Assembly: GCA_001780895.1 (NCBI GenBank)
Contig: MFJJ01000033.1
Coordinates: forward strand, 1-44,038
Length of the DNA stretch: 44,038 nt
Origin: Candidatus Gottesmanbacteria bacterium RIFCSPHIGHO2_01_FULL_46_14
GTDB lineage: Bacteria; Patescibacteriota; Microgenomatia; UBA10105; UBA927
Direction of reading: 5' to 3'
Part shown: one piece after another, positions 1,158 through 43,966 of the stretch
Position numbering within the stretch: the first letter of the stretch is position 1
Layout of the letters: every line of letters begins with the position of its first letter
Notes under the pieces: model-generated
What the model was told of the DNA's origin: nothing
The model's database searches: none
The model's input: the letters and a program-made list of their open reading frames with translations, nothing else
Made by a program: the position numbers and the translations under genes

Positions 1158-2760
1158 TCTGTTGCTTGTCCTGATCGTTTTTGTTGGATTGTTTTTGCGA
1201 CTTTACAACCTGTCTGAGATTCCTGTTGGCCTTCATGGTGATGAGGTAAGCATAGGCTATAATGCGTATTCGCTTCTTAAAACCGCCCGGGACCAGGATG
1301 GTAATTTCCTCCCGCTTTCATTTGATCAGTTCGGAAATTTCAGAGCTCCGGGCTACGAGTATATAGATATTCCCTTTGTGGCCATTTTAGGGCTCAACGC
1401 ATTGGCTGTACGATTGCCTGCCGCGATTTTCGGATCATTAACAGTTTTAATTTTTTACTATTTTTTGCTTGAATTTTTTGGAAAAAAATCAAGTGCATTG
1501 CTGGGATCGTTTCTTCTGGCAATCTTGCCATGGCATATTAATATCTCGCGTGCAAGCTCTGAAGCGGTAATCGCCTCGTTTTTTGTAATTTTTGGCATAT
1601 ACCTTGTTTATAGGGATAAGTATATTTGGGGTTTTGCTTCGTTTCTCATAAGTTTTTTCTTTTATCATGCCGCAGGACCTTTTGTTTTGGTATTTTTACC
1701 CTTTCTGTTTGTATTATCAAAACGTAATCGTTGGAGATCTTGGATCGTTTATGCGGTACTCATTATTGGATTTGTGGTTTTTTTGACAGCTGGAAGCGGA
1801 AAGGGGCGCGTATCGCAAGTCAGTCTCCTCAATATTCCGGGAGGAACACGGGATCTCATTCAGTCAATGGACGAAGATGGATCTCAAAACCCGCTGCTTA
1901 CTCGCTTTTATCATAATAAACTTTATTTTTACGGCAGATTATTTACGACATTCTTCTCTCAACATATTTCACCGGATTTTTTGTTTGTTAATAACGGTAA
2001 ACCGGAACGGTATCGATTATATTGGGTAGGCAATTTATATTTTATTGAGGCGCCATTTCTTGTCTTTGGGTTTGCCGTGTTGCTGGTCGAAGGAATAAAA
2101 AAGAAAAAGTATCCTTGGTTACTGCCGCTTGTATGGCTTATCGCTGGTATTGTCCCGGCAGCGCTTACCTGGGAAGATATCCCAAACGTATTGCGCGCTA
2201 ACCTCATGATTCCGGCGCTTGTCATGATCATAGCATTTGGATTCTTTGAAGCATTAACACTGACGAGAGGATTCGTAAAAACCCTCTTTATCGGCATCTG
2301 TGCGTTTCTGCTTTTCCAAAATACTTCCGTATTTTTGCACAACTATTTTTACCATTCCAAAATCCATGAACCCTGGTTTCGGAGTGCGAGCGAGGAAGAT
2401 GTTGTGTTTACGGCGGATGAGTTATCCAGGCAATATCAGGAAGTAGTGATGAGCACTGAAAGAAATAATAATCTCATATTTCACCTTTTTTATCTTAAGT
2501 TTGACCCACTAGAGTTTCAACGCTTGGGTTCACCCAAAGAAGAGGATGGTCTCAGATTTAGCAAGCTCGTTTTTCGCTACGGACCGTGCCCCATTGAGCA
2601 GTTTAAGCTTGAAAGTGAAGAGCGCTTATTAAAAGCCGTTTTTATTGTTAAATCAAGCGAATGCGAGATTAATCCCCTCAAGTGGGAGACAATCAAAACG
2701 ATTTCGACTCCGGACGGTCTTCCTGCATTTTACGTTGTTCGTCGATTATCACAAGTTTGA
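1147..2760 (+). CDS. PMT/GT39-type GT-C glycosyltransferase
   Basis: Multi-TM protein; 'LRLYNLSEIPVGLHGDEVSIGYNAYSLLKTARDQDGNFLPLSF...LAVRLPAAIFG...LPWHINISR' matches the other window paralogs. Confidence 0.85.
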   Translation: MKRNLLLVLIVFVGLFLRLYNLSEIPVGLHGDEVSIGYNAYSLLKTARDQDGNFLPLSFDQFGNFRAPGYEYIDIPFVAILGLNALAVRLPAAIFGSLTVLIFYYFLLEFFGKKSSALLGSFLLAILPWHINISRASSEAVIASFFVIFGIYLVYRDKYIWGFASFLISFFFYHAAGPFVLVFLPFLFVLSKRNRWRSWIVYAVLIIGFVVFLTAGSGKGRVSQVSLLNIPGGTRDLIQSMDEDGSQNPLLTRFYHNKLYFYGRLFTTFFSQHISPDFLFVNNGKPERYRLYWVGNLYFIEAPFLVFGFAVLLVEGIKKKKYPWLLPLVWLIAGIVPAALTWEDIPNVLRANLMIPALVMIIAFGFFEALTLTRGFVKTLFIGICAFLLFQNTSVFLHNYFYHSKIHEPWFRSASEEDVVFTADELSRQYQEVVMSTERNNNLIFHLFYLKFDPLEFQRLGSPKEEDGLRFSKLVFRYGPCPIEQFKLESEERLLKAVFIVKSSECEINPLKWETIKTISTPDGLPAFYVVRRLSQV

Positions 2761-4312
2761 ACACGGCAGAACTATCTCCTCGTTTGACTGTCGAGAGGGT
2801 AATAGCGCCTGGTACATCTTCACAGGTTCCAAAGTTGGCATAGAGCGTGCCTGGACTGCCGGTGATTGTTTGTATACCGTCTTTTTTTACTAGTCGGATC
2901 GGGCATTCTTCGGTAGTAAAGACATAGTTATCAAACGATGTCCTGTCGCGATCATCACCGGGAAGTTCACGCGTTTCGGCAATAAATTTAGCCGGATCGT
3001 ACTTGTTGTAAAAGAGGAAAAAAACTGTGGGAGCCGTTTCTCGGTTGGTAATAACGAAGCTGGTAAATTGATTTTTCCGTTTCTGTACTTGCGCAACTAA
3101 CTCTTTATATCCCTCATGACGATACAAGGTACGATGAACTGGTAGATGGATATAGTAAGCATGAAGAAAAGCTATAAGGCTCACACAATAGCTTATTGTC
3201 ACGAAGTTTCGGAACTTCAATATTTTTTCTAAACCGATGGCGGCAATGATTGAAAGGGCGGGAAATGCCAATAGCGTCCGCTGAAGGTTTGGAACATCGT
3301 CAAAAGCCAAGCTGCTTCCGACGGGCGCGATGAGTATCCACCCGAGTAAAAGTTTTGATTCCCACGATCTCTTGTTGATAAGTGTGACAGCGCCGATTAT
3401 AAGTAGTGGAAGTTCAATAAGATAAATGAGTGGAGCACCGGGGATGCGGTAGCGTTCAGGAAGACCTTTATCGGTAAATAAAAACGCATATGAAAAATGC
3501 GAGAAGTAATTTTCTAAGAACTGCCCGGCAAATCCCAGTGGTTTGTTATGGAATATACGAGAGAAAATCGGTTTTACGCCACGAACACCATCCTCACGGA
3601 TCGCTTCTTCGGCGGTAAGCTGCACATTGCCGCTGGCTGGGATTCCAACGGTACGAAGTCGTAAGGATAATGCTGGCGAAGCGAGTATAAACGCGATTGG
3701 CAGGATAATGAAGATAAGAAAACGCACAATGTTTGTTCGAATATGCGATTTAGCTCCCAGGAAGATAAGAAGCGGGACAAAGAACGGCAAGAACGCTCGT
3801 GGTGCTTGATACAGGAGCATTGAAATACTAAAAGACATAAATGCAAGAATAAAACGCTTGCGCAAGAAGAGGAGACAGCCGACTGTAATAAGGAAAACGA
3901 CTACAACGTTTTCAATTGCGGTCCTCGAGAGATTAATATGCCAGGGAGAGATAGCAAGAAGAAAAGATGAGATAAGCGCCAATCGGTAGGATTTGAATAG
4001 TTCGAAGACAAGAAAATACGTTACCAAGATAGTGGCGATGCCGAACACAGCCGACGGAAGGCGGACCGAAAATTCATTAAGACCAAACATTGCGACAGGT
4101 GGAATCGCTAAGTACGAGTAGCCTGCAGGACTATTTATAAATGATCGCAAATGGAGAGGGAGGAAATTTCCATTCATGTCCCGGCCAGTCTTGAGGATCG
4201 AGTAGGCGTTATAGCCCAAGAATGCCTCATCTCGATGAAACCCAGCAGGAAGGGAGCCCAACAGGTATAATCGAAGTACAGTGGCCAAAAGCAATATAAG
4301 AAATAATTTCAC
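2693..4312 (-). CDS. PMT/GT39-type GT-C glycosyltransferase
   Basis: 'LRLYLLGSLPAGFHRDEAFLGYNAYSILKTGRDMNGNFLPLHL'. ORF track starts at 4480, but alignment of the N-terminus with paralogs supports one of the tandem GTG codons at 4315/4312. Confidence 0.8.
   Translation of the reverse strand: MKLFLILLLATVLRLYLLGSLPAGFHRDEAFLGYNAYSILKTGRDMNGNFLPLHLRSFINSPAGYSYLAIPPVAMFGLNEFSVRLPSAVFGIATILVTYFLVFELFKSYRLALISSFLLAISPWHINLSRTAIENVVVVFLITVGCLLFLRKRFILAFMSFSISMLLYQAPRAFLPFFVPLLIFLGAKSHIRTNIVRFLIFIILPIAFILASPALSLRLRTVGIPASGNVQLTAEEAIREDGVRGVKPIFSRIFHNKPLGFAGQFLENYFSHFSYAFLFTDKGLPERYRIPGAPLIYLIELPLLIIGAVTLINKRSWESKLLLGWILIAPVGSSLAFDDVPNLQRTLLAFPALSIIAAIGLEKILKFRNFVTISYCVSLIAFLHAYYIHLPVHRTLYRHEGYKELVAQVQKRKNQFTSFVITNRETAPTVFFLFYNKYDPAKFIAETRELPGDDRDRTSFDNYVFTTEECPIRLVKKDGIQTITGSPGTLYANFGTCEDVPGAITLSTVKRGDSSAVFKLVIIDEQRKMQEDRPESKSF
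4266..4271 (+). promoter_or_regulatory. Candidate -10 box (TATAAT) for the gene at 4281
   Basis: Perfect TATAAT 9 nt upstream of GTG 4281; lies inside the opposing CDS 2693-4312. Confidence 0.45.
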
Positions 4313-5795
4313 CACTCTTATTATAGTCTTTCTTGTAGCTATTAATATCTTCCTTTCCTCTTGGAGTGTCCTCCACGGTGACATTAATTTCATTTCGGAT
4401 GTTGCCCGCGATATGTTTTTGCTTGATGAAATACGACAAAAAACATTCGTTCTCATCGGGCCCAGAGCAAGCGGACTCATGTTTCATGGGCCGCTTTGGT
4501 CGTACCTCAACTATCCCGGATTTGTTATTGGCGGCGGTAATCCTGTTTTCGTAGGTTGGTACTGGATATTTCTCATCATTGTATTTCTGGTAGCCGGTTA
4601 TGTCATCGCCAAGCGTTTGTTTAATAAAATTACAGCGACGCTGTTTGTACTCATGGCGTCCTTGTACCTGGCGTTTCATGCAAATTCGCTGTCAAATCCA
4701 AACGGAGGCATGTTTGCCATTCCGTTCTTTTTCTTTTTTTTCATTCGATACATACAAACTTTAAGAATCCGATTTCTCATTTTTCATATAGTGACGGCCG
4801 CAGCAATGGTTCAGTTCCAGATTGCTATGGGAGTGCCCTTTCTTTTTCTCTCTGTTCTGTTTACAACAGTGTTTGTCATAAAAAAACGAAAAGCAAACCA
4901 TATTTTGGCATATGCGCTTGTTCCTCTGTTGCTTGGTAATTTTATTGTGTTTGACATAAGGCATGAATTTCTCATTGCAAAAAATGCATTTCGTCATCTG
5001 GGGACTATTGATTCAAACGTGACCATGTGGGACCTTGTTGTTGATCGCGCGAGGAATATTCTGACCGGAATGGAATTTTTGCGATTTGGGCCACCGAATG
5101 GCCAAACGTACGCAATTATCATATTTTTTGTTTTTATAACTATCCAAATTAAAAACAATATTCATCGCGGTATTTATCTTGTATTTCTCTATTTTTTCTT
5201 TGGGTTTTTCGTCTTGAGCCTTGCAAACAGATTTCCGCTTCTTTCCTTTTACGTTTTTCCGCTCCACCCATTTGTGTTTCTCATGTTTGCTTCTTTTATT
5301 ACGTCTCCTCATAAACGGGTGTTTGTCTGTATTTTTACGGTTATATATGTCCTCAATCTCGTTGGTATCTACAACTACATAAATGATTTGAATCATTTTA
5401 TTGGGAAGAATCAGTATTCATGGAAAGCAGTTTTTACTGCCGCAAGCACTATCTACCAAGACGACGAGAAAGAATTTGGGTATTTTATCTATTCCCCGGA
5501 TATTTTAGGATATGGTCCGCGATATGCTATGGAGTATGCAAAAAAAGTCTATGACAAAAACGGATTTGGATATCAGAAAAAACCGATTACATACCTGTTG
5601 ATTGAACCACCGGCTCGAGACAACCCTTTCACTTCAGAGGAGAAGTGGAAGCTCTACCAAATACATATCTATTCAACTCCCGTTATGGTAAAAACGTTTG
5701 ATAACGGATACAAAGTAGAAAAGCACCTCCTAAATGCCGGAGAAATAGTAGTTCCATTTGATCCGGGAATTAACCCCGGTCTTCATTATAGATAA
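4281..5795 (+). CDS. GT-C-like membrane glycosyltransferase ('LIGP' subfamily)
   Basis: GTG start; 'FISDVARDMFLLDEIRQKTFVLIGPRASGLMFHGPLWSYL' matches 11052-12464 and 19305-20696. Confidence 0.75.
   Translation: MAKSNIRNNFTTLIIVFLVAINIFLSSWSVLHGDINFISDVARDMFLLDEIRQKTFVLIGPRASGLMFHGPLWSYLNYPGFVIGGGNPVFVGWYWIFLIIVFLVAGYVIAKRLFNKITATLFVLMASLYLAFHANSLSNPNGGMFAIPFFFFFFIRYIQTLRIRFLIFHIVTAAAMVQFQIAMGVPFLFLSVLFTTVFVIKKRKANHILAYALVPLLLGNFIVFDIRHEFLIAKNAFRHLGTIDSNVTMWDLVVDRARNILTGMEFLRFGPPNGQTYAIIIFFVFITIQIKNNIHRGIYLVFLYFFFGFFVLSLANRFPLLSFYVFPLHPFVFLMFASFITSPHKRVFVCIFTVIYVLNLVGIYNYINDLNHFIGKNQYSWKAVFTAASTIYQDDEKEFGYFIYSPDILGYGPRYAMEYAKKVYDKNGFGYQKKPITYLLIEPPARDNPFTSEEKWKLYQIHIYSTPVMVKTFDNGYKVEKHLLNAGEIVVPFDPGINPGLHYR
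4320..4325 (-). promoter_or_regulatory. Candidate -10 box (TATAAT) for the gene ending at 2693
   Basis: Perfect TATAAT on the minus strand, 7 nt before GTG 4312 (4 nt before GTG 4315); lies inside the opposing CDS 4281-5795. Confidence 0.5.
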
Positions 5796-7372: not shown

Positions 7373-9497
7373 ATCTCCATAATAAGGCAGCCAGAGTCAG
7401 AATGGAAATGATCGTTATCATAATTCCTAATCGAACGGATTGTGGTTCGTAGGAAAACATTACTTCATGACTGCCGGCAGGAATGACGACCGCGCGCATT
7501 GTGTGATTGGCCCTCCGAACCTCGGTTTTTTTGCCGTCGATTCTGGCAATCCAGCCGGGATAGTAGGTATCGGAGAGTACGAGCGTATCTGGCGCATTCG
7601 TACTTACGGTAAGATCGACACGATTTGGTGTATATGAATCTATATGCACGATACCAGTACGCGATTCAAGTACCGCACGAGGTACTGCGTCTTTATTTTC
7701 ATATACGATCCAGCCGTCGCTATCATAAATCTTGGTCAAACTTGCAGGAGCTACTGTCTGATTTTCCACTCGGTCAAGGATGTATTTGACACCCAAGTTG
7801 TTAAGTAGGGTAAGCCGATCGGTGTTGTTGATCAAATCTCGTGACCCATAGCCTGGTGTAACCTGTGCGTCTGATCGAGACGTTTTACCTCCTTTACTTG
7901 ACGTTAAATATTCGCCGTACCATGCCGGATAGAGAGGATCATACCCTTCAGGAGAATAGAGTCCGAGTTGGGTAGCAAAATTTGCTTCGATTGCCGCTGT
8001 TCCGAATCCCCAAATTCGATTAGTCTCGGCCCTATCTTTGAGGAACGTGACGATAGCGGTTGTTGGATAGAAGAGATCAGCCGGAACAAAAGGATTGAAT
8101 TTTTGAAATGCATAGAAGAGATCGGCTGTATGAATAAATAAGAGTATGGTGAGGGCCAGTACCATATACTTTTTTTTGCCAACTCCGATAAAAAACAGTG
8201 CGAGCGCGGCGGCAGAAAAAATTGCTCCGTAAATCAGTGATCTTGTTCCATACCCCAGAAGTCTTGTCATGAGAAAACCCAGTCCCAAAAGAATGATGAC
8301 TAGGAGAGATCGCTTCATAAGCTTTTTTATGGTATGTGGTTCCCGTAAAAAGAGATCAAGGCCAATGCCTGTTAAAATCGCGAGACACAATTGAAAAAGA
8401 AATATAAAAAGCGTAGGACTACTAGTTCTCAACTGAGGAATCCGGTAGAGGAGAATGGTGAGCGGGTTTTTTGTTGCCAGTAGGAGAATAACGCCAGCGG
8501 TGATCATAAATATATGTTTTAATTTATTTTTAGATCGGAGAATGGCCGGAAGGAAAAATAAAGGTACGAGTCCGATCGAGAGCACTTTTCCGATATAAGT
8601 GTCAGTGAGTATATAGTTGCGTGTTGCCGGGTTTCCAAAAAAGTCAGGAAAAACCAGCATGATAAGTTGTTGAGGTTGGATAAGGACATTGTTCACAAAA
8701 AACTCGTATGGATGCGCGTTTCGAGCAGAGTTAAGCGCCAGTTCGATGCCCGGAATAAGTTGAACAGCACTAATGCCAAGAGGAATCAGAATGACTGAAA
8801 TTTGTAGTCGACCGGTTCTAACTCTGAGGTATATGAGGGAAAATAAGTAGACCATTGTTGCAATCTGTGGATGTCCTGCAAAAAAAGGGAGAGACAGAGA
8901 AAGAATGAGTATAAGAGTCCAGCGATTTTCAATGGCTAAAAGTGCTAAGGGCAACCATACTATGACGTGGCCGATCGTATTATACTCAAGCCAGACAGTC
9001 ATGAATGAGCCATAGGAAAAGCTTATGGAAGCAAGAGCCGAGGCCATTGGGTGAAGACCGATTTTCCGGCAATACCAGTAGGAGAAAAAACTCGATAACG
9101 CCGGCTGCAAGAATACGAGAATGCTCCATGCCAGTGGCTGCGAAAAAAGAAAATAGAGTAGCGAAAGGGGGTAGAGTGCCGAGGACTGGAAGTTTGCCAG
9201 CAGCGGCGCGCCAGAAAAATTATGAGGATTCCACAAAGGAAGATTTCCAGATTTGAGTTGTTCGATGACTTGTGTTTTCCATGGATAGAGTTGCTTGAAG
9301 GTGTCCGGATACTGCGCTTTGTTGGGGTAACTTCCTGGATTGTATCCGAGGATTGAATATGAGCGCCACGGCTTGTATTCAGCAATGAGGAGGTCTCCGG
9401 GGAAGGGAAGTTGACCCAAAAGAAAAAACTTATAAAAAAATACTCCGGCAACGAGAGTGCTCGTGATTAATGATAGAAATATTTCTTTTTTACCCAT
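7359..9497 (-). CDS. YfhO family membrane protein
   Basis: 712 aa multi-TM; 'GDLLIAEYKPWRSY...YPWKTQVIEQLKSGNLPLWNPHNFSGAPLLANFQSSALYPLSLLY' and C-terminal 'SDTYYPGWIARIDGKKTEVRRANHTMRAVVIPAGSHEVMFSYEP'. Confidence 0.88.
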   Translation of the reverse strand: MGKKEIFLSLITSTLVAGVFFYKFFLLGQLPFPGDLLIAEYKPWRSYSILGYNPGSYPNKAQYPDTFKQLYPWKTQVIEQLKSGNLPLWNPHNFSGAPLLANFQSSALYPLSLLYFLFSQPLAWSILVFLQPALSSFFSYWYCRKIGLHPMASALASISFSYGSFMTVWLEYNTIGHVIVWLPLALLAIENRWTLILILSLSLPFFAGHPQIATMVYLFSLIYLRVRTGRLQISVILIPLGISAVQLIPGIELALNSARNAHPYEFFVNNVLIQPQQLIMLVFPDFFGNPATRNYILTDTYIGKVLSIGLVPLFFLPAILRSKNKLKHIFMITAGVILLLATKNPLTILLYRIPQLRTSSPTLFIFLFQLCLAILTGIGLDLFLREPHTIKKLMKRSLLVIILLGLGFLMTRLLGYGTRSLIYGAIFSAAALALFFIGVGKKKYMVLALTILLFIHTADLFYAFQKFNPFVPADLFYPTTAIVTFLKDRAETNRIWGFGTAAIEANFATQLGLYSPEGYDPLYPAWYGEYLTSSKGGKTSRSDAQVTPGYGSRDLINNTDRLTLLNNLGVKYILDRVENQTVAPASLTKIYDSDGWIVYENKDAVPRAVLESRTGIVHIDSYTPNRVDLTVSTNAPDTLVLSDTYYPGWIARIDGKKTEVRRANHTMRAVVIPAGSHEVMFSYEPQSVRLGIMITIISILTLAALLWRYEKK

Positions 9498-11050
9498 ATA
9501 AGTAATAAGAAGAGCAGTGTGCTGACACTTACTACGTTAGCAATCAAACGTACCGGCGTGTGACCAAAGGCAACGCGTACCGAATGTTGACCCGGGGGTA
9601 CTGAGAAGGTAATGAGACCGCGCCAATTAATATCCTGAAACTCTATAGGAACTTGCGTGCCATCGACGTATGCCCGCCAACCCGGAAAATACTGGGTATT
9701 ATCGACAATCGTGCTTTCCGTGGTTGATGAAACTTGAAACGTATGTTGTGTTGAACGCTTTTCAATATTCGTCACTATCGTATCTCCTGATGCAACTTGG
9801 ATTGGTGAGGGTGGGTAAGACTGGTGAGGACCAGCAGACCAAACCACGTCCGTTTCACCATAATACGTCGTATTTAAAGGATAGTTCCAGTAAAATCCTT
9901 CATCGCTGACGGTATCAAATCCAAGAGGCGGATTCCAAAAATAGAGCGTGGAGACAATAACCAACGCGAGAGTTCCACAATACATAAGAGGTTTTTGGAA
10001 TACGCGCATCCGCATAAGCAGTCCCGATGCGAGTGTCGTCATGATGACAAATATCGAGAGGAATCGCCAGGGGAATTGAAATTGGCGTAAGATCGGAAAA
10101 TATCTCCAGAGGAATGAAGAGATCGGTTGCATAAAAAATAAAGCAATGAGTGACCATAGAATTATGTAACGCCATAGGGTTTTGTCGCGGGCAAAAAAGA
10201 GAGCGATAACGTGGAAGATGCCAATTTGAACAGAAATGCCTTCTGTTAAAAAAGTTGGAGCGTTTGTAAAATTAGGGATAAAGAGTTGATAAAGTTGCGG
10301 AAAATGCATCTGAAATACGTCTTTCATAAATAAATCACCATAGGTGAATTTTCGCTCGACGATCGCCGGGAGCCAGTACGTCGCGGAAAGTGCAAGTGCC
10401 CCGGCGAGTGCTCCGGCTTGGTAAACCCGAACACGCCACGTCTTACTTGTCACAAATGCAAACGTAGCTGCGAGTGCAAAAAATAGGAGGCTCACCGAGT
10501 TATGGCTCAGGATAAGGAAAGCTCCAGCGACAGCAGTTATAAAAATATTTTTCCGAACTATGCCGTACAAGACAAATGGGAACGCCGCGTATGTGTACGC
10601 TTCACCAAAACTTCCCCGAACGTGCGTTTCCACGAGCCGAAACGGCGCAAACTGATAAAATACAGTGGCGAAAAATGCGATTCGGTCATTGCGCCAAAAC
10701 TCCCGCGAAAACATAAACATTCCAATTCCTGAAAAAACAAAGCTTAGAGCCAAAACAACTTTGAATGTATTGACGAGTCCTAAACCGAGAGAAATAAACG
10801 GCACAGAAACCAAATACGGCGTGTGGTAAATAAAGTTAAATAGCGGCATGCCATAACCATAATTGAGATCTGATGCCCACCTGGGGAGGATTTGACCACC
10901 GGTTATCGCTTTATAATAGGCAGCCATTCTGGCCAAATGTACGGGGCCATCGTGGGTATGAGGAATGTCATTTGTAGTGAAAAAAGGAATAAACGGGAGC
11001 AGTGAGATTGCAACAATGAGCAAATACTGATGTAATACTGATAATCTCAT
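9467..11050 (-). CDS. PTPS-related-domain multi-spanning membrane protein
   Basis: 'HTHDGPVHLARMAAYYKAITGGQILPRWASDLNYGYGMPLFNFIY' plus C-terminal 'YFPGWRAYVDGTQVPIEFQDINWRGLITFSVPPGQHSV'; paralogous to 20689-22206 and 27744-29189. Confidence 0.8.
   Translation of the reverse strand: MRLSVLHQYLLIVAISLLPFIPFFTTNDIPHTHDGPVHLARMAAYYKAITGGQILPRWASDLNYGYGMPLFNFIYHTPYLVSVPFISLGLGLVNTFKVVLALSFVFSGIGMFMFSREFWRNDRIAFFATVFYQFAPFRLVETHVRGSFGEAYTYAAFPFVLYGIVRKNIFITAVAGAFLILSHNSVSLLFFALAATFAFVTSKTWRVRVYQAGALAGALALSATYWLPAIVERKFTYGDLFMKDVFQMHFPQLYQLFIPNFTNAPTFLTEGISVQIGIFHVIALFFARDKTLWRYIILWSLIALFFMQPISSFLWRYFPILRQFQFPWRFLSIFVIMTTLASGLLMRMRVFQKPLMYCGTLALVIVSTLYFWNPPLGFDTVSDEGFYWNYPLNTTYYGETDVVWSAGPHQSYPPSPIQVASGDTIVTNIEKRSTQHTFQVSSTTESTIVDNTQYFPGWRAYVDGTQVPIEFQDINWRGLITFSVPPGQHSVRVAFGHTPVRLIANVVSVSTLLFLLLIWVKKKYFYH
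11040..11045 (+). promoter_or_regulatory. Candidate -10 box (GATAAT) for the gene at 11052
   Basis: 5/6 match to TATAAT, 6 nt before ATG 11052; inside the opposing CDS. Confidence 0.4.
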
Positions 11051-11051
11051 T

Positions 11052-12464
11052 ATGAGAATTATAGCAAAGATAGCACCATTTTTTATTGTACTGCTATCCT
11101 TGATTCTAAGACTCTATAACATAGAGCAGTTTGCGGAATTTTTGGGAGATCAGGGAAGGACCGGTATCATCGTCTATGAAGCCTGGCGCGACCGGACAAT
11201 TCCCCTTATCGGACCGACGGTGTTAACCGGTCAGCATTTGGGTCCGGCTTGGTATTACCTCATCGGCCCGTTTTATATCCTTTCGAGATTTAATCCTCTC
11301 GGACCGGCAGTTGGAATGGCACTTTATGGCGCTTTGGCTACACTTACACTCTACCTTCTCACAAAAAAATTGTATGGCCCTTTTATCGGATCACTCGTTG
11401 CACTTCTTTGGTCAGTATCGCCTTTAATAGTGCGACAGGATCAAACTATTTGGGAACCGAATCTCGTACCATTATTTGTTCTCGTGTTTCTTCTGGGTCT
11501 CAAAAATCGCAATTACCTTCTTCTTTGGGGAGCGTGTGGAGTACTTGTTCAACTCCATATACCCAATATTATTTTCATCCCGATTGCGATAGTCGTTTCG
11601 CGAAGATGGAAGCCTGCGTTTGCAGGCGTTCTGTTGTTTTTGCTCATTCAAGTGCCGTTTTTTGTGTATGAGACGCAACACGGATTTAGAGATATTGTCG
11701 GAGTTATGAATGTCATGAGTCAGCCGAGCGCGTTTTCAAAGACCCAGTTTCTTATGTCTTTTATTGACTACACATCTCGAGTGTTTTTTCGGGCAATACC
11801 TACGGGAAATCAAGTTGCCATGATCGTTATTCAGCTGATGTTGGGACTCCTCCTTCTGGTCAGCAAAAGTCGTTGGAATATTTTTTTATTGGCAATCTAT
11901 GTATTCGGAATTGCTGCAATGGCAAGATACCAGGGGCTCGTTCACGATCACTATCTTAATTTCCTACTGCCGTTTCCCTTTCTCTTTATTGCCAATGGGC
12001 TCCGCATCGTTCATAAATACTCGAAATTGGGAACAGTTCTTGTGGGGAGCATTCTTATTATCTGGCAAATAACAAAGCCCGGGTATTTTCCCCAACCCAG
12101 AGGCGATATTGATCGGGTTGGGGAGGGAGCAAGTGCCATTGTTCAAGATGCGCAGGGGTTTTCATATTCATTTACCGTGATCGGCTCGCCGTCATTTAAC
12201 GATCTTCACTACCGGTATTTTTTCTTACTCAACCATTCCGTTCCCGCTGACATTCGTACACATAATGTAGACAAACTTTATGTTATTTGTGAAATAGGGA
12301 ATATGTGCCCAAATCTCGACCAGCATGCAGTGATTAATGTGATGTGTTTTGATGCCCACTGTGAGGGCGAGTACCCAAAGCTCAACTTGTGGGAATGGAA
12401 TTATGAAAAAACTATTCCTGTTGGAAGTAGTTTTATCTTCGTCTTTGGTACAATAAAAGCATGA
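11052..12464 (+). CDS. GT-C-like membrane glycosyltransferase ('LIGP' subfamily)
   Basis: 'FLGDQGRTGIIVYEAWRDRTIPLIGPTVLTGQHLGPAWYYLIGPFYI'. Confidence 0.78.
   Translation: MRIIAKIAPFFIVLLSLILRLYNIEQFAEFLGDQGRTGIIVYEAWRDRTIPLIGPTVLTGQHLGPAWYYLIGPFYILSRFNPLGPAVGMALYGALATLTLYLLTKKLYGPFIGSLVALLWSVSPLIVRQDQTIWEPNLVPLFVLVFLLGLKNRNYLLLWGACGVLVQLHIPNIIFIPIAIVVSRRWKPAFAGVLLFLLIQVPFFVYETQHGFRDIVGVMNVMSQPSAFSKTQFLMSFIDYTSRVFFRAIPTGNQVAMIVIQLMLGLLLLVSKSRWNIFLLAIYVFGIAAMARYQGLVHDHYLNFLLPFPFLFIANGLRIVHKYSKLGTVLVGSILIIWQITKPGYFPQPRGDIDRVGEGASAIVQDAQGFSYSFTVIGSPSFNDLHYRYFFLLNHSVPADIRTHNVDKLYVICEIGNMCPNLDQHAVINVMCFDAHCEGEYPKLNLWEWNYEKTIPVGSSFIFVFGTIKA
11058..11066 (-). promoter_or_regulatory. Candidate extended -10 (TGCTATAAT) for the gene starting at 11050
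   Basis: Consensus TGnTATAAT, hexamer ends 7 nt before ATG 11050; inside the opposing CDS. Confidence 0.55.
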
Positions 12465-17824: not shown

Positions 17825-19305
17825 ATAGATATCTTATTGCAATTCTCATTCTGGCTGCTTTTTTGCGTCTTTGGAAGTTAGGAAGCGTTCCGCCGAGTGC
17901 AAGCATGGACGAAGCTTCTGTTGGATGGAACGCATACTCTGTATTAAAAACCGGCGTTGATGAGTACGGAGAATTTCCGCTCATATCGCAGCGTGGGTAC
18001 GACGATTGGAGAAGATCAACATATCTGTTCCTTACGATCCCGTTTATAGCTTTTTTTGATTTACAGGTAATTTCAATACGTCTTCCGGCGGTAATTCTTT
18101 CTTTGTTTACTATTTGGGCAACGTACCATATTGTGTTGCGTTTGTTTTCAAAAGATAGAATTGCAATACTTTCCGCACTACTCCTTGCCATAAGTCCATG
18201 GCATATCTACATTTCCCGCCTTGGGCACGAGTCCAATGCGTATTTGTCATTTTTTGTTTTCGGGGTCCTGTTTTTTCTGGAAAGTCGATGGTTCGTGGCC
18301 ATCGTATTTTTTACTCTATCGATGATGAGTTACTATGCAGGGCAAGTATTGGTGCCGCTCTTTGGCTTAGGGCTTCTTATAATTTATCGCGATTCATTTA
18401 AGAAGTTTGTCGTTCCGATTATGGTATCTGTTCCATTTCTCGTTCCAATTTTTTGGACTATTTTTTCGCCAAGTGCAATGGTGCGTTTCCAAGGAACGAG
18501 TGCCTTTGATTTTACACAGAAGAAGATAACCAATGGAAAAATACTTATGAATAATTATCTGTCTCATTTTAGGCCTACATGGCTGTTTACGAATTCCGGA
18601 AGTGAGTCATTTAAAGTGCCGAATCTGGGACTTCTTTATGTGTGGGAACTGCCATTTATTGTCATCGGAATTATTTCATTGCTGCGTCGTCGTGATGTGG
18701 ATCACCGTGCAAAAAAACTAATATTTCTTTGGTTTTTTCTTGCTCCGCTACCGGCGTCGATTGCGACACAGGCGCCTCATGCAATGCGTTCATATGCATC
18801 TGTAGTTCCCTGGCAAATAATAACCGCCCTTGGACTTTATTGGACCGTATCAAATCTTAAAATTCCTTCGTTTATTATTGCGTTGACATTGCTCCTGGTC
18901 AGTTTGCGTTTGTTTTATCCGAATTATTTTATTGTTTTTCCAAGAGAACAGTCTGATTCATTTCATTTCGCACTATCCAAAGCACTTCCGAATATTTTTT
19001 CTAGAGAACAAGGGGTTAATAAAATCGTTTTTTCCAATAAAGACAATTTGTATCAATCATATATGTTGTATTTATACTATCGTCATTTTGATCCGTTCAC
19101 GTATCAGCGAATGGGCGGGACAAAATCAGGTGGGTTTGCCGAAACGCATGCAATCGGCAAATATGAATTTCGTCCGATTAATTGGAGCAATGAAGAACCG
19201 GGATTGTATGTTGGCAATGTATCCGAGTTTCCCGACGGGGTAACTGGTATCGGAATGACAAATAAAACAGGAAAAGAAGTGATTAAAATAGTAGAACGGA
19301 AATAA
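17821..19305 (+). CDS. PMT/GT39-type GT-C glycosyltransferase
   Basis: GTG start; 'LRLWKLGSVPPSASMDEASVGWNAYSVLKTGVDEYGEFPLISQRGYDDWRRSTYLFLTIPFIAFF'. Confidence 0.85.
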   Translation: MNRYLIAILILAAFLRLWKLGSVPPSASMDEASVGWNAYSVLKTGVDEYGEFPLISQRGYDDWRRSTYLFLTIPFIAFFDLQVISIRLPAVILSLFTIWATYHIVLRLFSKDRIAILSALLLAISPWHIYISRLGHESNAYLSFFVFGVLFFLESRWFVAIVFFTLSMMSYYAGQVLVPLFGLGLLIIYRDSFKKFVVPIMVSVPFLVPIFWTIFSPSAMVRFQGTSAFDFTQKKITNGKILMNNYLSHFRPTWLFTNSGSESFKVPNLGLLYVWELPFIVIGIISLLRRRDVDHRAKKLIFLWFFLAPLPASIATQAPHAMRSYASVVPWQIITALGLYWTVSNLKIPSFIIALTLLLVSLRLFYPNYFIVFPREQSDSFHFALSKALPNIFSREQGVNKIVFSNKDNLYQSYMLYLYYRHFDPFTYQRMGGTKSGGFAETHAIGKYEFRPINWSNEEPGLYVGNVSEFPDGVTGIGMTNKTGKEVIKIVERK

Positions 19306-20696: not shown

Positions 20697-22206
20697 TTTT
20701 ATTTTATTGATATTTTCACTTATTCCCCTCTTCGATTTACTCCACCCCGGATTGCCGATAACCCATGATGGACAGGATCATGTGGCCAGAATTGCCAATT
20801 TTTACCAGTCTCTCACGGAGGGAAACATTATTCCAAGATGGGCGGGGAATCTTAATTGGGGCTATGGTCATCCCATTCTCATGTTTCTCTATCCGTTGCC
20901 CTCATACGTTGCGTCGCTGTTTCACTTTATAGGATTTTCCTTCGTTGACAGTACAAAGCTGGTGTTTGCAGTCGCCTATATTGCCAGTATTTTTGCGATG
21001 TATCTATGGAGTAAATCTCAATGGGGAGAACGAGCTGGTTTCGCCGCAGCGCTGCTGTATGGTTTTGCGCCGTATAGATTCGTCGACCTGTATGTTCGTG
21101 GCGCGATAGGCGAACACGTAGCATTCATTTTCCCACCGCTCATCCTCTGGGCGACTGATCGCAAACGATGGCTCATCGGAACACTCGCGGTAGCAGGACT
21201 TTTGTTATCTCACAACGCAGTCAGTCTTATGTTCGCACCGGTAATTATTTTGTATATTCTATACCATCGTCGATCCTTTTTACCTATCGTTTTGGGACTT
21301 TTGATATCTGCATTTTTCTGGATACCAGCGCTCTATGAGGGGAGATATACGCTTCGTGATATCGTGACCAATGAAGATTTTGCTGGTAGATTTGTACATT
21401 TTAGTCAATTTTTTTATACGAGGGGCAATGAGCTATCAAAAGAAATCGGTATTGTTGGGTTTCTCATTATAGTTTCTGCTATTGTTTTGTTTTTTCGGCG
21501 AAGAGAAAAATTTCTTGGTGGAGTACTTATTGTTCTCGGAATATCAATATTCTTGATGTTACCAACGTCTCAACCAATATGGCAAACAGTAACGATTCTG
21601 CAGAAGTTCCAGTTTCCGTGGCGTTTCTTACATCTGGTTGTATTTTGTGTCGCGGTTTTGGGTGGACTTGTCATGAGTAAAGTCAAAAATCAGTTGCCGG
21701 TAGCAATGTTTGTAGCGATTGGACTTTTAATACCTACATATTCTATGTGGAACGCTCAATATTATCGGGAGTATCCGGAGTCGTTCTTTACCTCGGTGTA
21801 TAAGGGGACAACCGATACCGGTGAAAGCAGCCCGATCTGGTCCGTGCGTTTCATGGAGCACGAGCCTTCTGTGCCAATCGAGGTTATAGATGGGAATGCA
21901 CAAGTCGAGTTTGGTTTGCGAAACACCACAAAACGGGAATATAAGGTCAATGCACAAGATAAAACGCGACTACTTGAAAATACACTCTATTTTCCGGGAT
22001 GGCAGGTATTGGTGGACGGTCAACAAGTCCCCATCGAATTCCAAGATCCAAATCACCGTGGCCTCATGACATTTGCCGTAGATTCAGGTGTACATATGAT
22101 ACTTGTACGGTTCACTCGGACAAAACTTCGTCTTTATGCTGAACTTGTGAGTTTGGGCGCTTTCGTATTATTAGGAGGCATGCTCATCTATAATAGGAAG
22201 TTATGA
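20689..22206 (+). CDS. PTPS-related-domain multi-spanning membrane protein
   Basis: 'PITHDGQDHVARIANFYQSLTEGNIIPRWAGNLNWGYGHPILMFLYPLPSY' and 'YFPGWQVLVDGQQVPIEFQDPNHRGLMTFAVDSGVH'. The ORF-track start at 20569 is too early; MTSFILLIF at 20689 is preferred. Confidence 0.8.
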   Translation: MTSFILLIFSLIPLFDLLHPGLPITHDGQDHVARIANFYQSLTEGNIIPRWAGNLNWGYGHPILMFLYPLPSYVASLFHFIGFSFVDSTKLVFAVAYIASIFAMYLWSKSQWGERAGFAAALLYGFAPYRFVDLYVRGAIGEHVAFIFPPLILWATDRKRWLIGTLAVAGLLLSHNAVSLMFAPVIILYILYHRRSFLPIVLGLLISAFFWIPALYEGRYTLRDIVTNEDFAGRFVHFSQFFYTRGNELSKEIGIVGFLIIVSAIVLFFRRREKFLGGVLIVLGISIFLMLPTSQPIWQTVTILQKFQFPWRFLHLVVFCVAVLGGLVMSKVKNQLPVAMFVAIGLLIPTYSMWNAQYYREYPESFFTSVYKGTTDTGESSPIWSVRFMEHEPSVPIEVIDGNAQVEFGLRNTTKREYKVNAQDKTRLLENTLYFPGWQVLVDGQQVPIEFQDPNHRGLMTFAVDSGVHMILVRFTRTKLRLYAELVSLGAFVLLGGMLIYNRKL

Positions 22207-27747: not shown

Positions 27748-29189
27748 AATTACTAATTCTTCTTATCATCTCTATCTTCGCGGTACGCTACCTTTTGTTA
27801 CCTGGATTTATTCCTACTCACGATGGAGAATATCACATCATTCGATTTTGGCAGTTTGAAAATGAGATCCGTGCCGGGGATTATTTTCCCATCTGGGCTC
27901 CGGATCTTAACTCCGGATACGGATTGCCTCTGTTTTATTATCATTACCCGATGCCAAATTATTTTGGTGTTCTATTTCACCAGTTTGGTTTTTCGTATAC
28001 GGATTCCTTCAAGCTCGTACTTGCGACATTTTATATACTAGCGGTCCTCTTTTTTTACTTGTGGTCACGCAGTTTTTGGGGCACTATTCTATTTGCCTGG
28101 ACGCCCTACTGGTTTGTTAATCTTTTTGTCCGGGGATCAATCGGCGAAGTTATGGCAAGTGCGGGTTTTGCGTTTGTCCTTTGGACAAACGCTTCTCGCC
28201 GCAATATCCTTATCTCGCTGGGTGTTGCTTTTATTATCCTCTCGCACAACATTGCTGCGATGCTATTTGTCCCTATTGTTCTTTTATTAAATTTTCGATC
28301 AACGATTGTTGGAATACTACTGGCTGCGTATTTTTGGTTACCTGCAATTTTTTCCCGAGACTTCGTTTTGGGTCTAACAAGCGTTAATCTTTATGATCAT
28401 TTTTCCGAAATTTCCCAGCTGCTCATTCCATCATGGGGAACTGGATTTTCCCAACCTGGTGCTCCGTATAATGAAATGTCCCAACAGCTCGGATTAGGTT
28501 CAATCCTCGTTGGATTTGCCACAATACCGCGGTCGTTTATTCTCGTTCTTATAGCGTTCATGACTACAGCTGGTTCTCGGTTCATATGGAACACGTTACC
28601 ATTTCTGCAATTGGTTCAATATCCGTGGAGAATTTTGATGTTAGTTCCCTTTGTCGTTGGATACCTTGCCAGAAAAATGTCTGGGCGATTTGCAATGATC
28701 GTTGCCGCCATTTCCGTTCTTGCGGCTTTGCCCTATACAAAACCAGTCGTTTATGAACCGAGGGATGATCAATATTATTTATCCCGCAGGGAATTTACCG
28801 ACGGCACCTCGTCTTTGGGTAATAGCATGTCGACAGTTTGGTCACCATGGAAACAGGAGCGTACGAAAGAAAAAATTGAGATAGTCAGTGGCGAAGGAAA
28901 ACTTGAGATGCATGAACTCCTCCCAACGCGTTTGAGTTTCGCGGTCAATGCATCAACTCCCGTCACAGTAAGGATAAATACCGTGTACTTTCCGGGATGG
29001 GAAATCCAGCAACGTGGCCATTGGAGTCCGCTCGTCCCAGATCAAAATGGTCTCATGAGCGTAGAACTTTCGGCTGGAACAAGCCAAATACGAGTCGAAC
29101 TTCATAACACAGCGCTTCGAAAGGGAGCACTCATCGTCTCTCTTATTAGCTTCATTTGGGTGCTCGGATCAGGTATACTCAAGAGATGA
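27744..29189 (+). CDS. PTPS-related-domain multi-spanning membrane protein
   Basis: 'IPTHDGEYHIIRFWQFENEIRAGDYFPIWAPDLNSGYGLPLFYYHYPMPNYF', 'YFPGWEIQQRGHWSPLVPDQNGLMSVELSAGTSQIRV'. Confidence 0.75.
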   Translation: MKLLILLIISIFAVRYLLLPGFIPTHDGEYHIIRFWQFENEIRAGDYFPIWAPDLNSGYGLPLFYYHYPMPNYFGVLFHQFGFSYTDSFKLVLATFYILAVLFFYLWSRSFWGTILFAWTPYWFVNLFVRGSIGEVMASAGFAFVLWTNASRRNILISLGVAFIILSHNIAAMLFVPIVLLLNFRSTIVGILLAAYFWLPAIFSRDFVLGLTSVNLYDHFSEISQLLIPSWGTGFSQPGAPYNEMSQQLGLGSILVGFATIPRSFILVLIAFMTTAGSRFIWNTLPFLQLVQYPWRILMLVPFVVGYLARKMSGRFAMIVAAISVLAALPYTKPVVYEPRDDQYYLSRREFTDGTSSLGNSMSTVWSPWKQERTKEKIEIVSGEGKLEMHELLPTRLSFAVNASTPVTVRINTVYFPGWEIQQRGHWSPLVPDQNGLMSVELSAGTSQIRVELHNTALRKGALIVSLISFIWVLGSGILKR

Positions 29190-40237: not shown

Positions 40238-41401
40238 ATGAAAAAATTGTTAATAACAGCATTTATTGGTTCTGCAAATCTTGGGGACAATGCTATTTTT
40301 GTGGCTATATCCCAACATTTATTGAGTAATAAAACTATCAGCCTTTCAGCATTTACTTCAAATATACGAAGACATACTCATATGGAGCCTGTCCGTTTCA
40401 TTCAAACTATCAATCCTATAAGAATCATATCAGAGATCGCGCGTTGTGACCTGTTGGTTATCGGCGGTGGAGGTATCATTCAAGATGAAACAACAGCATA
40501 CAATCTCATTCGCCATACCTATAAAGCATTGATTGCAATACTCCTTCGAAAGAAATTCATGTTTTACGCAGTTGGCGTAAGCCGGCTTAGGTCTTTGGTT
40601 AATCGCATGCTCGCGCGTTTTGTCCTTGAGAGAGCTGTTGCCGTCACCGTGAGGGATGAAGAATCAAAAAATATTATTCGATCATTAGGAGTAGACCGAG
40701 AAGTATTCGTCACAGCCGATCCCGTAGTGAATTTACGCATCAACAAGCTCGCTCCGTTCCCAAAATCACCGAAGAGGTACATCGTCGTTTGTCTGCGGCA
40801 CTGGTTTGACATCAACCGGTATATCCCGGTGGCTGTGGTAAACAAAATACACTATAGATCCCAAACGAATAAAAAGAAATATGAAGCGTTTCTTGCGGTG
40901 ATCGCTCCATTTTTTGACTGGCTCGTGAGCCGGTATAACTATACCATTATGTTTATGCCTTTCTTCGATCAGCGGGATGACGTGGTGCACGCAGACGTTA
41001 TGAAACACATGAAGCAGCCAGACAGCTGTATAAACATAGGCAGACAGCCGTCGCTTGAAGAAGTGTATACTCGTATCGCCGGCGCCAGTTTTGTTTTAGG
41101 CATGCGTCTTCATTCGTTGATAATCTCCTCGACCCAAAATACGCCGTTTATCGCTCTGACGTACGCACGGAAAGTTTCTAGCTTTGTCGATGAACTATCG
41201 CTTTCAACGTATAGTCTAGGACTTGAAAAGCTTACGGTGTCAGAGCTTGAGGATGTGTGCATCAAGCTCCACTCTGAAAGGACTCATATACAATCTACGC
41301 TCAAACGCAGGTTCGCTGTTTTACAAAGGAGAGAGAAGAGCAATGTCAGAATTTTACGAAAAGTGCTTACTGCAGCGAGTATTCTGCCTCAAGAATGTTA
41401 A
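40238..41401 (+). CDS. Polysaccharide pyruvyl transferase family protein (CsaB-like)
   Basis: 'MKKLLITAFIGSANLGDNAIFVAISQHLL...CDLLVIGGGGIIQDETTAYNLIRHTYKALIAILLRKKFMFYAVGVSRLRSLVNRMLARFVLERAVAVTVRDEESKNIIRSLG...GASFVLGMRLHSLIISSTQNTPFIALTYARKVSSF'. Confidence 0.88.
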   Translation: MKKLLITAFIGSANLGDNAIFVAISQHLLSNKTISLSAFTSNIRRHTHMEPVRFIQTINPIRIISEIARCDLLVIGGGGIIQDETTAYNLIRHTYKALIAILLRKKFMFYAVGVSRLRSLVNRMLARFVLERAVAVTVRDEESKNIIRSLGVDREVFVTADPVVNLRINKLAPFPKSPKRYIVVCLRHWFDINRYIPVAVVNKIHYRSQTNKKKYEAFLAVIAPFFDWLVSRYNYTIMFMPFFDQRDDVVHADVMKHMKQPDSCINIGRQPSLEEVYTRIAGASFVLGMRLHSLIISSTQNTPFIALTYARKVSSFVDELSLSTYSLGLEKLTVSELEDVCIKLHSERTHIQSTLKRRFAVLQRREKSNVRILRKVLTAASILPQEC

Positions 41402-41918
41402 GCTCGTTCTCATTTCTTTGCGAAAATTCCAGAATTTTTTGTAGCTCTTGTTGGATGTCGCCGGAGGATTTATCGATCATTGATTGGATGACTTGGAGAT
41501 GATATGGATATGCGTCGTGTGCAAGCTTCGTTATGTTTAGATCCAGGGAGTCAGTGGAATCGGCCACGACCTTGAGTGTGTTGACAAATAAGGTCATGTA
41601 GTTCTCTCCCCGAAATGCGGTGTGAAGTGCAAGCGGACCGTTACCCTTCTCCAGCACTTTCACAGCAGTTGTCAGTTCCCGATCAGCCAATGCAACGTAT
41701 TTGCGTGCTTTGGTATACGGATTGGGTGATAAAATGAGTGAAATCCTGTCCAGAGCTAGTCTGATTTTATAAAGCGGGCTATCGGGTAAAAGGTTTGTTT
41801 CTGGTGCTTGGTAAACAACCTGCGGTTGCACCGAAGGAACAGGTGAGGGAGAAATCTGTGCGTTGGCCTGGGATGAAACCGTCAGAAGAATGAAAAAAGC
41901 AGCAAATAATCGTTTCAT
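41367..41918 (-). CDS. Small exported DUF5667-like protein
   Basis: Signal peptide 'MKRLFAAFFILLTVSSQANAQ', then 'NLLPDSPLYKIRLALDRISLILSPNPYTKARKYVALADRELTTAVKVLEKGN'. Confidence 0.65.
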   Translation of the reverse strand: MKRLFAAFFILLTVSSQANAQISPSPVPSVQPQVVYQAPETNLLPDSPLYKIRLALDRISLILSPNPYTKARKYVALADRELTTAVKVLEKGNGPLALHTAFRGENYMTLFVNTLKVVADSTDSLDLNITKLAHDAYPYHLQVIQSMIDKSSGDIQQELQKILEFSQRNENELNILEAEYSLQ

Positions 41919-41920
41919 AG

Positions 41921-43966
41921 ATGAACACTATCACAAAAATATTCTATAATCAAGCACCAGTTGGGTATATCCTTTCCCAAATATACATGAAAAGCAACCG
42001 AATGACACTATCTATACTTTTGGCGGTGGTATTTTTTGGAATTGGGCTCTCTAGTTTGCCCCACTATGGAGTGAATTGGGATGAACCGGTGCATTTTGGT
42101 CGAGGACAAGCGATACTTCATTATTTTTTTACCGGGAAAAAAGACTATGCTGATTTGGAAAAATTCCAGCCGGCGAGGAGAAGTTTTTATCAGAGCGAGG
42201 CATATACGTTTAACTTTTTTGAAAAAAAATTTACAGCCGCTGACCCTTTGACCGTTGGCGGCCACCCACCCTTGAGTGGTTTTTTGGCAACAATATCGAA
42301 TGTAATTTTTTACCAAAAATTGGGAATTTTGGGAGATATCGAAGCATATCATTTGTATGGTGTATTTGTTTCAGCGGTGTTTATTGGAATTATCTTTTAT
42401 TTTGTTCACGATATTTATGGGCCTTTCATAGCAATGGTTGCTACAATTTCTTTGATGACGTATCCGCTTTTTTTGGGAGAAAGCCGTTTTAATATCAAAG
42501 ATCCACCAGAGGCATGTTATTTCGGTATCACGTTAATTTGTTTTTACTATACTGTCGTGAGAAACAGACCGGGATGGATACTTTTCACAGCTATCTTTTT
42601 TGGATTAGGATTGGCGACTAAGCTCAATATTGTGTTTGCGTTACCCATTATGTTTTTTTGGGCCGTCGTCGTGGGTAGAAGAATATTACCCCGTTGGATT
42701 TTTGTAGTTCCTTTGATTGGAGCAGTAATTTTTTTCGTCGCTTGGCCGATGTTGTGGATGGATCCAGTGAGCCGAATCCTAAAAGTATTTGAGTACTATA
42801 CATCAATTGGGACTAATGCTGGTTTTGATCCGCGGTATTTGACCATTTTCCGTTTTAATACGTACGCGTTGCAATGGATTCTCTATACGACACCCGTAGG
42901 CACATTATTTTTTAGTTTCTTGGGTATATTTTATGCAGTACGAAGCGTAAAAAAAGATAAAAATAAACTTTCGCTCCTACTTCTCTTGTGGTTTTTCGTT
43001 CCGCTCGCAAGAGTTACCGTTCCTAACGCCAATATCTACGGCGGCGTCCGGCAGATCATGGAGTACATCCCCCCCATGGCTATCCTTGCGGGGATAGGAG
43101 CAGGATTTTTGATAAAAATATATAAAAATTATAGTTTTTTACTTCAAATCCTCATTCTTCTCTCGTTTGTCCCCATCACCCTCAAGATGATCTCCATGTA
43201 TCCCAACGAGAGTGTATACTTTAATCCATTAATAGGTGGGCTGAAGGGAGCTAAAGAGCGCAACATTCCTGGTTGGGGCAATTCTCTCGGGAGCACGTAC
43301 CGGCAGGGAATCAGATGGATCAATACCTACGCCCAGCGGGAGGCGAAGATTGCTACTCTTTTTGGCCTTCGTAGTAATATTGCTCTTACTGACATCCGAG
43401 CAGATATCGAGTTTGAAAGTCAATTTCGTAGCGGAATCATGCGTCAAGGAGAATACATCATTGGACCCACACATGAAGGAAGTCAAGAAGACTCATATCT
43501 GTATAAATATCTTGAACGCTTTCTTGAACCTGCCTATCAACTTAAGGCACAAGGGGTGCCTATTCTCAAGGTGTGGAAAAATGATCTCGCGCATACCAAA
43601 GAGGATTACCAAAATGAAAAAAAAATCATAGGGGCACCATCGTATTCCCAAAACGGGAAAACACTCATTGTTGATGCAGGCAGTTTGGTTAAGTTTACCA
43701 AAGTAGATATACGATACCCTCCCTCCTCTTGCTTACCGCCGAGAGAGGGTTATATTGAATATTCGACTGATGGAGAGCGCTGGTCGCGAGAAGGAAATGA
43801 TCTGGCCCACCGCCCCATCCCTTTTTGGTTTCAAACCGAACCCGATCCTGGGACGTTTCAGTTTTTGTTTGCAGCGGAACCCGCCCGTTATATCCAATTT
43901 GTTAACATAGATCCAAGCTCGTGTTTGTTTAAAAAACCGTTGCATGTGACTATCTCATATTTATGA
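41921..43966 (+). CDS. GT39-like GT-C glycosyltransferase with C-terminal F5/8C-like domain
   Basis: 'LPHYGVNWDEPVHFGRGQAILHYFFTGKKDYADL...FNIKDPPEACYFGITLICFYYTV'; C-terminus 'LVKFTKVDIRYPPSSC...GYIEYSTDGERWSREGN...EPARYIQFVNIDPSSC'. True start could be 41987 (MKSNRMTLSILL) or 42002. Confidence 0.82.
   Translation: MNTITKIFYNQAPVGYILSQIYMKSNRMTLSILLAVVFFGIGLSSLPHYGVNWDEPVHFGRGQAILHYFFTGKKDYADLEKFQPARRSFYQSEAYTFNFFEKKFTAADPLTVGGHPPLSGFLATISNVIFYQKLGILGDIEAYHLYGVFVSAVFIGIIFYFVHDIYGPFIAMVATISLMTYPLFLGESRFNIKDPPEACYFGITLICFYYTVVRNRPGWILFTAIFFGLGLATKLNIVFALPIMFFWAVVVGRRILPRWIFVVPLIGAVIFFVAWPMLWMDPVSRILKVFEYYTSIGTNAGFDPRYLTIFRFNTYALQWILYTTPVGTLFFSFLGIFYAVRSVKKDKNKLSLLLLLWFFVPLARVTVPNANIYGGVRQIMEYIPPMAILAGIGAGFLIKIYKNYSFLLQILILLSFVPITLKMISMYPNESVYFNPLIGGLKGAKERNIPGWGNSLGSTYRQGIRWINTYAQREAKIATLFGLRSNIALTDIRADIEFESQFRSGIMRQGEYIIGPTHEGSQEDSYLYKYLERFLEPAYQLKAQGVPILKVWKNDLAHTKEDYQNEKKIIGAPSYSQNGKTLIVDAGSLVKFTKVDIRYPPSSCLPPREGYIEYSTDGERWSREGNDLAHRPIPFWFQTEPDPGTFQFLFAAEPARYIQFVNIDPSSCLFKKPLHVTISYL

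Follow-up and report, generated by a model that had tools for sequence, protein, structure and literature searches.

Two genes of the window (the whole stretch of DNA analysed here, 44,038 nucleotides) face away from each other, and a single T at position 11051 makes up the whole gap between their start codons. Comparison of this site with its counterparts in related genomes and with the start signals of the genome itself makes it probable that we are dealing with a compressed divergent junction, in which a conserved extended -10 element of the minus-strand gene is embedded in the codons of the plus-strand gene and a weaker -10 element of the plus-strand gene is embedded in the codons of the minus-strand gene (Table 1).

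Table 1. Features of the divergent junction and of the two genes that flank it.
Feature	Positions	Strand	Description and basis
Minus gene	9467..11050	-	527 aa, PTPS_related / GT-C-like membrane protein; open reading frame and orthologues
Plus gene	11052..12464	+	470 aa, GT-C (PMT_2-like) membrane protein; open reading frame and orthologues
Start codon of the minus gene (CAT on the plus strand)	11048..11050	-	Sequence
Start codon of the plus gene, ATG	11052..11054	+	Sequence
Inverted repeat TCTCAT-T-ATGAGA	11045..11057	.	Exact; produced by the ATG-AGA openings of both genes; missing from the nine relatives
Putative extended -10 of the minus gene, TGCTATAAT	11058..11066	-	Within plus codons 3-5; 10.5 bits; an equivalent box at each of the nine orthologous junctions
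Candidate -10 of the plus gene, GATAAT	11040..11045	+	Within the opening codons of the minus gene; 5/6 match, at chance level

Orthologues of both genes are held by nine genomes of the same family, belonging to three other genera, with 43-51% identity for the minus gene and 27-42% for the plus gene. In Pfam, the minus-gene orthologues match PF10131 (PTPS_related), GT-C_AftD and YfhO, and nine of the ten aligned members of the plus-gene family match PMT_2; neither window protein itself gave a Pfam match at threshold. The only alternative start of the minus gene is a TTG at codon 10, the use of which would cut off conserved residues, and the plus reading frame contains no other ATG, GTG or TTG from its upstream stop (11028) to the first membrane segment. 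Since neither reading frame offers a better alternative start, the assignment of the starts to 11050 (minus) and 11052 (plus), proposed in a preliminary description of this DNA, is well supported, as is the reality of both genes. The letters and coordinates given there for the junction, including the exact inverted repeat, were likewise borne out by the sequence. The coding sequences are separated by a 1-bp gap and thus do not overlap. GT-C-like membrane proteins form a long run across positions 1-34735 of the window, and two paralogues of the minus gene are found in the window at 20698-22200 and 27750-29180.

Our search of the literature on this Patescibacteria-like family found no start-site mapping. 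Gene starts were called in 0.89 Mb of the window genome and in 0.8 Mb of one relative (G011) with a simple gene caller, which probably misplaced one or more starts in G011. A motif fit seeded with TATAAT upstream of divergently placed genes yielded TGnTATAAT, the TG being learned from the data; this motif peaks 6 nt before the start codon and usually lies 6-9 nt before it, whereas the same fit upstream of within-operon genes drifted toward an A-rich consensus. In the window genome, a near-consensus hexamer was present 6-9 nt upstream of 68 of 182 divergently placed starts versus 33 of 342 within-operon starts (p = 9e-14), and the corresponding counts for G011 were 76 of 212 versus 34 of 310 (p = 2e-11). 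In both genomes, divergently placed genes have TGnTATAAT near the start codon as their principal upstream motif, and Shine-Dalgarno-like 4-mers are few. A -10 hexamer this close to the start is the recognized hallmark of leaderless genes, so that leaderless or near-leaderless starts appear to be common in the family.

Judged by this motif, a minus-strand promoter at TGCTATAAT is well supported. The letters ATTATA at 11058-11063 of the plus strand are read as part of this element on the minus strand (11066-11058), where it ends 7 nt before the minus start, within the spacing of about 6-7 nt between -10 box and start codon that marks leaderless genes. Its score on the genome's own motif is as high in only 0.6% of divergent first-gene starts and is equalled or exceeded in 0.3% of within-operon starts; about 99% of divergently placed genes match the promoter motif of the genome less well than this element does. 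Leaderless genes in which a -10 box (TANNNT) adjoins the start codon have been described (Zheng et al. 2011, PMC3160421), and the '-10-motif ORFs' of Deinococcus-Thermus are leaderless genes with a start-adjacent -10 (PMC12340547). As in these genes, 6-7 nt separate the -10 hexamer from the start here, and the signature is widespread in the window genome; unlike in them, the box is of the extended type and falls within the codons of a divergently oriented partner gene. A text search of PMC12340547 turned up no reference to divergent or bidirectional pairs.

We compared the orthologous junctions, a check that the preliminary description had proposed, and found the pair arranged head to head in all nine relatives, with the minus extended -10 retained in every one of them (9.2-11.1 bits, 21-23 nt from the minus ATG). 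The extended -10 placed earlier 7 nt upstream of the minus ATG is thus both above chance and conserved. Seven of the nine relatives belong to one genus, and with this and the common ancestry of all of them the junctions do not count as independent events. In five relatives (G011, G014, G020, G021, and G022) the two start codons have two bases in common and form CATG, and in G011 and G021 the plus gene has no other possible start. In the other four (G007, G017, G019, and G023) the plus start lies 45-49 bp further downstream. The equivalent extended -10 is found in 10 of 10 loci, plus-coding or non-coding alike, and in the alignment of the junctions it is the block that stays invariant beyond the coding sequence of the minus gene. 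In five loci (the window, G011, G020, G021, and G022) the Ile-Ile of the plus gene that lies over the -10 is always encoded as ATT ATA, a choice that accounts for 4.5-5.9% of Ile-Ile pairs, and the box is still present in the four loci where it is non-coding. The constant use of this rare codon pair, together with the presence of the box outside coding sequence, indicates that the DNA element, and not the peptide, has been kept.

The window lineage differs from the relatives in spacing. Compared with most relatives, its minus gene starts two codons further upstream, and the stretch between start and -10 is shorter, with a spacer of 7 nt versus 21-23 nt. As the shifted start and the shorter stretch together leave only these 7 nt, the minus gene looks leaderless in the window lineage alone; in the relatives, to judge from the spacing, a minus mRNA made from the same promoter would carry a leader of only about 14-16 nt.

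In the window lineage the plus ATG now lies one base from the minus ATG, and both proteins begin with Met-Arg encoded as ATG AGA, hence the palindrome at the center of the junction. Its arms consist of ATG and the second codon AGA common to the two genes (found as second codon in 15 of 861 genes of the window genome), and only three bases per arm coincide. The preliminary description had drawn attention to the repeat, and a perfect 6-bp inverted repeat between the two boxes would suit an operator for a dimeric regulator of both genes. However, the 13-mer is unique in the window and missing from all nine orthologous junctions, and the two ATG-AGA starts account for it, so that we rejected the operator as highly improbable. 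From its letters and its distribution, the palindrome is best taken as a chance result of the shared first two codons, without function.

With the starts one base apart, any promoter would have to lie in the partner gene, a point of the preliminary description that we uphold. The promoter of the plus gene would accordingly lie among the opening codons of the minus gene, where several candidate boxes are found. GATAAT ends 6 nt before the plus ATG, which is the favored spacing of the genome, and is our leading candidate for the plus-gene -10 at leaderless spacing, with a likelihood that we place slightly below even. Within the leaderless range, no extended -10 of the plus gene scores above 4.5 bits, a value reached by 9.7% of within-operon starts, and in a plain hexamer count a 5/6 match was present 5-8 nt upstream of 30 of 340 within-operon starts; sites as good as GATAAT with its 6-nt spacer are thus found at approximately 9-10% of within-operon starts. 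Of the 'mirrored -10 boxes' described earlier, the minus box stands as strong and conserved, whereas the plus box does not stand out from chance matches.

The same frequency bears on a symmetrical arrangement of two equal, interlocked leaderless promoters, placed in each other's codons with start sites 2 bp apart and with a functional palindrome between them. Both boxes do have leaderless spacing, and among 265 CATnATG sites in the sampled genome both boxes are this good only here, but a plus box matched at about one within-operon start in ten and relatives that carry neither the palindrome nor a plus box at that position render this arrangement unlikely. Because the relatives start the plus gene elsewhere, the conservation comparison bears on the minus box alone. 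Alternatively, the plus gene may be leadered, with its promoter deeper in the minus gene, for example at TGCAACAAT (last base of the hexamer 34 nt upstream, 6.0 bits) or TGATGTAAT (15 nt upstream, 4.6 bits), and with a 5' UTR antisense to the first codons of the minus gene. These sites score equal to or above GATAAT, and several relatives possess a -10-like GGATATAAT or a similar site in the minus gene, either 14 nt upstream of the CATG or, where the plus gene starts later, 61-65 nt before its start codon. The scores are modest, however, and the candidate sites coincide with conserved codons of the minus gene (His-Tyr), so that the protein can explain their conservation. We therefore consider a leadered plus gene possible, with the balance tilted against it.

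In the compressed junction that we favor, an RNA polymerase carrying the housekeeping sigma factor would use TGCTATAAT, inside plus codons 3-5, to transcribe the minus gene, and the minus mRNA would start on the minus ATG or no more than one base away from it, resulting in a leaderless mRNA that would be translated as such. The plus gene would be transcribed from a weaker -10 in the first codons of the minus gene, with GATAAT leading and TGATGTAAT and TGCAACAAT as alternatives. The footprints of the two polymerases would overlap, so that initiation at one gene is expected to exclude initiation at the other and only one gene would be initiated at a time. Such a tight junction would be tolerable because promoters here seem to need little beyond a 9-bp element near the start. 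A more far-reaching proposal, that touching or overlapping starts (CATG or CATnATG) with promoters in the partner's codons constitute a recurrent switch of the family, mutually exclusive and leaderless on both strands, strikes us as quite improbable.

Closely spaced divergent starts were also seen elsewhere. A second divergent pair in the window (41367-41918 on the minus strand and 41921-43966 on the plus strand) has starts 2 bp apart and weak -10 matches on both sides. Two further divergent pairs of the window genome have CATG-overlapping starts (L052 5362-5363 and L053 6258-6259), the former with -10-like boxes at leaderless spacing on both sides (TATAAT at 6 nt and TAAAAT at 7 nt). One of two CATG calls in G011, at 19041, was set aside as a probably miscalled start, because 84 bp separate the orthologous pair in the window genome and the alignment of the G011 protein begins at residue 18. 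The reading frames at 2693-4480 (minus strand, 595 aa) and 4281-5795 (plus strand, 504 aa, GTG start) overlap head to head by 200 bp (4281-4480), and at least one of their true starts probably lies further in. Among 207 divergent pairs of the window genome and G011, gaps of 3-13 bp occurred once, gaps of 14-24 bp 12 times and gaps of -2 to 2 bp six times; these numbers rest on the simple start calls and were left out of the evidence. The scarcity of 3-13 bp gaps possibly arises because a leaderless -10 would collide with the start codon of the partner. A class-wide scan of 382 genomes for the doubly symmetrical CATG pattern yielded no locus with reading frames of at least 100 aa on both sides among the 30 inspected, and its backwards control was also well populated, which makes the scan uninformative on the class.

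The window genome, 0.94 Mb in size, is as small as expected of Patescibacteria. The ribosomal protein uL30 (PF00327) is absent in all 24 genomes of the class (the window genome and 23 relatives) and present in 13 of 14 controls; loss of uL30 is a mark of Patescibacteria. No 16S gene was found in the assembly.

Among known systems, the bidirectional promoters of Warman and colleagues use one shared -10, and the distance between their start sites is most often 10, 18 or 23 bp (PMC12825309). The junction resembles them in its divergent transcription, overlapping polymerase sites and the expected mutual exclusion of initiation, but has two -10s 12 bp apart that flank predicted start sites about 2 bp apart. 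A shared -10 of this type was thus discarded, as the boxes are separate (11040-11045 and 11058-11063) and the geometry does not fit. Divergent overlapping genes are reported to be strongly under-represented because of the room that upstream signals require (PMC2174442). Such an overlap, of two bases (CATG), is seen at five of the nine orthologous junctions, with the window itself having a 1-bp gap. As to room, the conserved promoter inside the partner's codons appears to be the way in which it is saved here, since near-leaderless transcription from an extended -10 would remove the need for it upstream.

The site is a compact, conserved divergent junction using a near-leaderless extended -10, and not a new kind of element. 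It provides a conserved, testable case of a promoter read simultaneously as the codons of another gene and suggests a way to pack divergent genes without intergenic DNA. It also points to a common use of near-leaderless promoters of the extended -10 type in this uncultured, Patescibacteria-like family.
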